Source: Rufibacter ruber
Lineage (GTDB): Bacteria > Bacteroidota > Bacteroidia > Cytophagales > Hymenobacteraceae
Length of the DNA: 64,000 nucleotides
Assembly (NCBI RefSeq): GCF_001647275.1
Contig: NZ_LRMM01000022.1
Location: 1-64,000 of the forward strand
Direction: 5' to 3'
Numbering within the stretch: position 1 is the stretch's first letter; each line of letters opens with the position of its first letter. Position numbers and translations under genes: made by a program. Positions 38,348-39,492 of this stretch are shown here, piece after piece. Under the pieces are notes generated by a model. The model was not told the DNA's origin and made no database searches. It saw only the letters and a list, made by a program, of their open reading frames with translations.

Positions 38348-38476
38348 ATGCCCTTCCCTTTTTTACGGGAGCGCCTATTCCTGTCACCAGTCTGGTTGGT
38401 TTCATCTCCCCCCAGGCCACTTCACTCCGTGAAAGTCGCACTTCAGTCACAAAAAGACCTGCTTCCTCCCTTTTAG

Positions 38477-38508
38477 ATTGGTAGCGCCTGCAAAACACTG
38501 CATCTTTG
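38477..38508 (+). promoter_or_regulatory. Promoter of putative small RNA 1
   Basis: ATTG at 38477-38480 and CATCTTTG at 38501-38508 are separated by 20 bp. The same spacing and the same TGCATCTTTGTATCAC context occur at the second copy. Confidence 0.5.
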
Positions 38509-38513
38509 TATCA

Positions 38514-38662
38514 CAATAAAGGACAACGGCACCTGGAGACCTCCAGAGCAGCTGTTTCACTAAGAGAATCTCCTGACCGCGTTCAGGTTCCTATAGATTT
38601 AGAAGTTTAAAAGTTTTGTTTGTTAGTTTGGTGTAAGGGGCCCGGAAGATTCTGGGCTTTTT
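38514..38662 (+). ncRNA. Putative small RNA 1 (tandem pair)
   Basis: A transcript of about 150 nt is bounded by the promoter at 38477-38508 and a terminator hairpin GCCCGGA/TCTGGGC plus T5 (38640-38662). The 36 nt at 38611-38646 are identical to 39024-39059 in the second copy, whereas the 5' halves differ. No reading frame of note is present. This design, a fixed 3' end with a variable 5' half, would suit a regulatory RNA. It was not matched to a known family by eye. Confidence 0.5.
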
Positions 38663-38900
38663 CATTTCCAGGGGGCAAGGAAAACTGGTATTGATTACCG
38701 TTCAGACTTCTGCCTCCCCAATATAAGCCCCCCATGACAACCAGCGGGCGCGCCAGAAGCGCCTTTGCCTTCAAAGGAAGAAAGATTCCTCGTTTGCTTC
38801 TGCTTGGGCAGCCTGCTTACCCGTTTCACCTAACGGTTGTCCGTTTCGCTCCGGGTTTTTCTGGTTTCAGACAGGAAAAGGGCCGCTTCTTCTTAATTGC

Positions 38901-38932
38901 GTTGCCGCGCGGGCAGGAACCCTGCATCTTTG
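38901..38932 (+). promoter_or_regulatory. Promoter of putative small RNA 2
   Basis: GTTG at 38901-38904 and CATCTTTG at 38925-38932, again 20 bp apart and followed by TATCACCA. Confidence 0.5.
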
Positions 38933-38937
38933 TATCA

Positions 38938-39075
38938 CCAAGCAAGGCAAAAGCCCCTGGGTCTTTCTCAGCTGGCTTCTTCCCCACCGCTTTGCCTGGT
39001 CTTCATTATTTAGGTTTAGTTTAAAGTTTTGTTTGTTAGTTTGGTGTAAGGGGCCCGGATCAATCCGGGCTTTTT
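38938..39075 (+). ncRNA. Putative small RNA 2 (tandem pair)
   Basis: A transcript of about 138 nt ends in a perfect terminator GCCCGGA-TCAA-TCCGGGC plus T5 (39053-39075). Relative to copy 1 the terminator arms changed together (TCTGGGC here is TCCGGGC), which keeps the stem. The start lies 424 bp downstream of the start of copy 1. Confidence 0.5.
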
Positions 39076-39168: not shown

Positions 39169-39492
39169 ATGCAGTGGATAAAACTTTATGAGAGTGAGGC
39201 ATCGGCGAAAGCCGAAATCCCTTTGACCAAGGCCGTCACCGTGGTGGTGGCGGGGCAAGAGCTCTGCCTGGCCCATACCCGCGCCGGGCTCTTCGCGGTG
39301 AACAACGCGTGTCCGCACCTGGGCGACAGCCTCAGCCGCGGCACCACCAATTACCTCAATGAGATTATCTGCCCGTGGCACAGCTACCGGTTCAACCTGG
39401 CCTCTGGCGAATAATGCCGGGGCCGCACCACGCCCCTGAAGCGCTACCCGCTGGAAAGCCGGGAAGACGGGCTATATGTGGGACTGGACTAG
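39169..39492 (+). pseudogene. Rieske-type [2Fe-2S] protein gene interrupted by an in-frame TAA
   Basis: The first 81 codons encode a small Rieske ferredoxin with both cluster motifs: CPHLGD (Cys48, His50) and CPWHSY (Cys68, His71). A TAA at 39412-39414 follows FNLASGE. The same frame then continues for 26 codons (CRGRTTPLKRYPLESREDGLYVGLD) to a TAG at 39490. That tail matches the usual family C-terminus, so the intact protein would be about 107 aa. The stop looks like a single-base nonsense change or a sequencing error. The truncated product would still contain both cluster motifs. Confidence 0.8.

Follow-up and report, generated by a model that had tools for sequence, protein, structure and literature searches.

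Putative tandem twin RNA genes with an invariant 3′ tail suggest RNA control of nutrient uptake across the genus Rufibacter

Introduction

In Enterobacterales, OmrA and OmrB are tandem twin small RNAs (sRNAs) with identical segments and dissimilar middles, which use one shared 5′ seed in an Hfq-dependent manner to act on many membrane-protein targets. Among the Bacteroidota, the FopS/GibS sRNAs of Bacteroides are about 65-70 nt long, are encoded in 14 dispersed copies, carry a 5′ seed and are bound by the RRM protein RbpB; masking of start regions by FopS has been shown to repress (PMC11697453). In Flavobacterium psychrophilum, Rfp18 is encoded by a single gene and has its pairing region in a stem-loop, and its deletion lowers two metalloprotease mRNAs (PMC9723704). 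We found no described sRNA of Rufibacter or of its family in the literature.

The Rufibacter genes described here share with OmrA/OmrB their arrangement as tandem twins, their identical segments and dissimilar middles, one common putative seed and many candidate membrane-protein targets. However, the Omr seed lies at the 5′ end and requires Hfq, and there is no sequence relation. As with FopS/GibS, also from the Bacteroidota, the predicted sRNAs are paralogues, have a conserved segment that would pair with the start regions of nutrient-uptake genes, and occur without Hfq. In contrast to FopS/GibS, the Rufibacter RNAs have predicted lengths of 139-150 nt, come as two tandem copies and carry their proposed seed in the 3′ part, adjoining the terminator, and no RRM_1 protein was found in the source genome of the window. 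We therefore reject membership of the FopS family on the grounds of seed location, a roughly twofold difference in RNA length and the failure to find an RbpB-like RRM protein. Likened by description, Rfp18 is also a genus-conserved Bacteroidota sRNA and uses a single shared pairing region to affect genes for secreted peptidases, although it is a single gene where Rufibacter has two, and its pairing region is not a tail but part of a stem-loop. The Rufibacter twins are of a known kind but form a new family, whose layout is unusual in that it combines a frozen 3′ seed at the terminator, a variable structured 5′ half, a tandem arrangement and a phased upstream array.

Results

Layout of the twin units

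The window (the whole 64,000-nucleotide stretch of DNA that was analysed) comes from a 5.5-Mb draft genome. By sequence reading, it holds two tandem non-coding units, each made of a promoter, a body and an intrinsic terminator, with 424 bp from promoter to promoter and with TATCAC directly after CATCTTTG at both promoters; all of this is present as an earlier note on the sequence had described it. The features are as follows.

38421-38465, + strand: 21-bp-phased TTC(A) boxes of sRNA B, at 38421, 38442 and 38463
38478-38508, + strand: promoter of sRNA B, of the Bacteroidota -33/-7 type (TTG at 38478-38480, 20 bp, CATCTTTG at 38501-38508), conserved in 29 aligned promoters
38513-38662, + strand: predicted sRNA B, about 150 nt, its start predicted from the promoter and its end from the terminator
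38613-38634, + strand: invariant tail of sRNA B, GUUUUGUUUGUUAGUUUGGUGU, which is the proposed antisense seed (20 nt without variation among 29 copies; complement at start codons)
38635-38662, + strand: intrinsic terminator of sRNA B, by sequence reading
38845-38889, + strand: 21-bp-phased boxes of sRNA A (38845 TTCG, 38866 TTCA, 38887 TTC)
38902-38932, + strand: promoter of sRNA A (TTG at 38902-38904, 20 bp, CATCTTTG at 38925-38932), part of the 29-promoter alignment
38936-39074, + strand: predicted sRNA A, about 139 nt, fold z-score -2.5
38937-39000, + strand: stem P1 (38937-38949 with 38988-39000) enclosing hairpin P1a (38951-38960 with 38968-38978), from covariation
39026-39047, + strand: invariant tail of sRNA A, the same as that of sRNA B, proposed antisense seed (conservation, complement sites)
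39048-39074, + strand: intrinsic terminator of sRNA A, by sequence reading

Neither unit holds a credible ORF, the frames that cross the units are not gene-like, and no tRNA or tmRNA was found within the window. A sigma-70 promoter scan is uninformative in this phylum; sequence and conservation point to free-standing non-coding genes with their own promoters and terminators. The two units share a 3′ block of 37 nt (38610-38646 and 39023-39059), so that the identity reported earlier holds at a length one base greater than the 36 nt given. Their terminators, GCCCGGA/UCUGGGC and GCCCGGA/UCCGGGC, had been said to show compensated changes. This wording is too strong, because they differ by one substitution that turns a G-U pair into G-C, along with differences in the loop, and not by a two-sided change; the stem with genuine two-sided changes lies in the 5′ half and not in the terminator.

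Conservation and synteny in the genus

When 59 relatives were searched at the DNA level, each of the 15 other genomes of the genus proved to have the tail, and the locus occupies the same place in 16 of 16 Rufibacter/Sabulibacter genomes, as a pair in 13 (copies 0.4-4 kb apart) and as a single copy in three (G006, G012 and G013). This recurrence of the shared block, tandem or single, is beyond chance. The tail UUUGUUUGUUAGUUUGGUGU is invariant in 29 of 29 copies; TTTGTTTGTTAGTTTGGTGT is unchanged throughout, and the next 9 nt show two substitutions, in two species. The 5′ parts of the 29 copies are widely divergent, and within each paralogue they can be aligned across species. When the pattern was scanned with public names, it returned Rufibacter species and Sabulibacter ruber, together with three further isolated, chance-like matches in unrelated organisms. 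Out-of-genus matches were also considered as sRNA homologues and rejected, as none of the 16 loci that were read has the following tail and terminator of Rufibacter.

Gene order is constant, with a small secreted protein, sRNA B, sRNA A and a Rieske protein in succession, and a GSDH-type dehydrogenase gene lies on the opposite strand beyond the Rieske gene in 13 genomes. No mobile-element genes were recognised at the sRNA locus in this genus-wide comparison. Four genomes (L033, L037, L041 and L043) have two opposite-strand genes inserted between the twins, one of them, as judged by reading, for a PorP/SprF-like protein and the other for a lectin-like protein that is large and secreted. In the window, the Rieske ORF (39169-39414) is interrupted by a TAA where its genus orthologues continue (GE-stop-C... 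versus GEEC...), which is either a nonsense change or a sequencing error in this genome.

A structured 5′ half and a phased promoter array

Covariation among 12 species supports a 13-bp stem P1 around the 9-bp hairpin P1a in sRNA A. Overall, 92% of the alignment cells in this structure are paired, with two-sided changes at 9 pairs; 0 of 500 shuffles were equally good and slid controls were far worse. The terminator pairs are invariant within type A, and the stems of sRNA B are comparable to those of sRNA A and less alignable. With its covarying stem, the 5′ half has the appearance of a structural module. Almost all type-A sequences also allow the 5′ end, CACYAAAC, to pair with the GUUUGGUG of the tail, and this pairing is kept in 99% of cells with zero two-sided changes; as the main fold it is unproven for lack of any two-sided change. 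It might gate the seed, or it might merely mirror the promoter-proximal TATCACYAA. For the seed as part of the whole RNA, accessibility is predicted at only about 0.5, which weighs against the antisense reading.

Upstream of all 29 sRNA promoters (including L033-L047) there are 3-5 boxes with a period of 20-21 bp, equal to two helical turns, and this array ends about 10 bp upstream of the -33 box. TTC(A) boxes occur at 0, 21, 42, 62 and 83 bp in 27, 28, 28, 23 and 13 of the 29 promoters, respectively. LytTR sites are 9-bp direct repeats with 11-13 bp spacers, located about 4-11 bp upstream of the -35 element (PMC6193735). The phased boxes fit these sites in period and placement, whereas the box sequence is only roughly alike, and they are possibly LytTR-type activator sites.

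Complements of the tail lie mostly at start codons

The 16 genomes were searched with the 18-mer CCAAACTAACAAACAAAA at up to 2 mismatches, with the reversed pattern of equal composition as control. The pattern gave 62 sites, 29 of them the sRNA genes and 33 non-self, against 14 for the control. A site was taken to lie at a start if it was on the sense strand, with an ATG from -24 to +30 nt of the site end that opens an ORF of at least 100 codons with a short upstream extension. By this automatic rule 24 of the 33 sites are at starts versus 3 of 14 control sites (p 0.003), and by hand scoring 25 of 33 (p 9e-4), both counts including sites in orthologous genes, which are non-independent observations; with orthologous genes counted once, the figures are 14 of 22 versus 3 of 14 (p 0.02). 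Most sites in the genus end 1-13 nt 5′ of the ATG. Outside the genus, 46 genomes of the same family, where the sRNA was not found, yielded 21 sites for the pattern against 38 for the control (genus versus outside genera, p 5e-4). The conserved segment is thus complementary to several mRNAs at regulatory positions, in the genomes that hold the sRNA.

In the genome from which the window comes, a 14-mer core with at most 1 mismatch places 5 of 6 non-self sites at starts, versus 0 of 7 for the control (p 0.005). The genes concerned encode an H+-pyrophosphatase (L196), an aldehyde dehydrogenase (L199), an ammonium transporter (L201), an MFS permease (L202; near a contig start, scored by eye and labelled from sequence reading) and a nucleoside/H+ symporter (L203). 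At 2 mismatches the same genome has 69 sites and the control 76. Because this total shows no excess, the case for targets rests on the position of sites and not on their number.

Candidate targets

One candidate is the leader of hppA, where the match is retained in 16 of 16 species and the consensus includes CCAAACTAACAAACAAAG, ending about 9 nt 5′ of the ATG. The 22-nt tail forms duplexes with these 16 leaders at a mean of -18.9 kcal/mol, compared with -13.2 kcal/mol for the reversed tail on the same leaders and -10.6 kcal/mol for 34 leaders from the window. In the source genome of the window, the H+-pyrophosphatase frame (L196/L256, G000:C79:51137) has about 211 codons, versus about 750-800 in the other 15 genomes, and reflects a frameshift, a pseudogene or an assembly error.

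Weak matches from the DNA search of relatives recurred at one syntenic place, and a subtilase gene carries, in four species, an 18/19 match to the tail complement 9-11 nt before its ATG. We rejected subtilase as a universal target, as the match is lost in most species, and targets turn over between species. An MFS transporter gene has a 17-nt match to the tail complement upstream of its start, and in an aldehyde dehydrogenase gene the match spans codons 2-8. By Pfam domain, the recurrent candidates are the glutamate synthase glutaminase domain (G003, G011), DUF485 (G002, G008), acetyl-CoA synthetase (G008), MFS (G012, G015), a Na+/solute symporter (G006), TRAP DctP (G007), a PD40 tricorn-like protein (G000, G001, G011), an M16 peptidase and subtilase. 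These predicted targets centre on uptake and energy pumps, on the metabolism of nitrogen and acetate, and on secreted peptidases.

Discussion

We consider it probable that the two units encode twin trans-acting antisense sRNAs whose constant tail is a seed that represses translation from start regions, and the seed complementarity suggests that an RNA regulates nutrient uptake throughout the genus. A shared activator would act at the 21-bp-phased TTCA arrays upstream of both twins, and each predicted sRNA would be transcribed from its own Bacteroidota promoter as a fast-evolving structured 5′ stem module followed by the G/U-rich seed GUUUUGUUUGUUAGUUUGGUGU, which is invariant, and, immediately after this seed, a terminator. 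In the cell, the seed would pair with CCAAACUAACAAACAAAAC-like stretches, mostly 1-13 nt before start codons and sometimes over the first codons. The mRNAs targeted in this way would include those for transporters (ammonium, MFS, nucleoside/H+ and Na+/solute symporters, TRAP DctP, DUF485), for proteins of nitrogen, acetate and energy metabolism (H+-pyrophosphatase, glutamate synthase, acetyl-CoA synthetase, aldehyde dehydrogenase) and for secreted peptidases. Pairing would mask the start region, block ribosome access and so repress translation. Because the constant 3′ seed is identical, the twins should have common targets, and they would differ in expression, stability or dose. The earlier note had likewise proposed tandem regulatory RNAs with a constant 3′ part, but had given them separate targets through their variable 5′ halves; this second idea is reversed, since it is the shared part that is complementary to mRNA starts and would set the targets.

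The same complementarity could accompany activation or stabilisation of the paired mRNAs instead of repression, as might be expected from the example of Rfp18 in Flavobacterium, without which two peptidase mRNAs do not reach their full levels (PMC9723704). However, most sites cover the few nucleotides before the AUG, where pairing normally blocks initiation, as it does for FopS (PMC11697453), and we regard activation as unlikely. The tail itself is single-stranded, rich in U and G and adjoins the terminator, so that it resembles Hfq-binding 3′ ends, and its main role could be to bind a protein, as a chaperone or sponge element. The leaders of Bacteroidota are A-rich, and if the tail were such a site, its start-codon complements would just reflect the A/C-rich leaders of the phylum, a few of which the control patterns likewise match. 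Yet the reversed pattern of equal composition matches far fewer start regions, and other genera with similar leaders have no excess of tail-complement sites. Moreover, Hfq (PF17209) was found in 0 of the 16 genomes, and RRM_1 (PF00076) had 0 matches in the source genome of the window, whereas the control search does find one in a Bacteroides. A protein-binding tail with incidental complements is thus, in our estimation, distinctly improbable.

Viewed in one genome alone, the constant ends and dissimilar middles would also suit a promoter/terminator cassette with swapped inserts, which the earlier note had offered as an alternative, or a plain duplication decaying unselected except at the terminator. 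Such a module is unlikely because, within each paralogue, the 5′ halves can be aligned from species to species and retain a covarying stem, and because the frozen segment, with 20 invariant nucleotides before the terminator, is far longer than a terminator requires. The locus is also common to the whole genus and has no recognised mobile-element genes. Cassette and decay are already contradicted by this evidence, and we give them almost no credence. Scarcely any more can be given to a 6S-like or other known housekeeping RNA, even though the 5′ end pairs with the 3′ part in most sequences, as in 6S RNA. The frozen part is a single-stranded tail and not a promoter-like bubble, and the Rfam covariance search proposed earlier, 6S included, returned no match at the gathering score and, at E values up to 1, nothing relevant in the loci of six relatives.

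We therefore return to the twin antisense sRNAs and their importance. In a group without detectable Hfq, where RNA regulation is almost unknown, this case supplies a concrete seed together with twin genes, a control array common to both and a target list, and so opens RNA regulation in the phylum beyond Bacteroides and Flavobacterium to direct testing. The likely targets, namely ammonium, nucleoside and organic-acid uptake, H+-pyrophosphatase, glutamate synthase and secreted peptidases, point to control of nutrient acquisition. A more ambitious proposal, which we hold to be rather doubtful, is that the twins are an Hfq- and RRM-independent, genus-wide master sRNA pair that sets carbon, nitrogen and ion-pump expression through the frozen 3′ seed, with CACYAAAC pairing either locally (in P1) or with GUUUGGUG of the seed, such that the 5′ module gates the seed. 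If this were true, similar-seed loci in L020 and L032 would make an order-wide class. These are two genomes from another family of the order, each with a short conserved locus on the reverse strand near position 1500 that contains CATCTTTG, AAGTTTGTTTGTTAGTTTAG and a terminator hairpin, and this locus is a possible compact relative of the sRNA.
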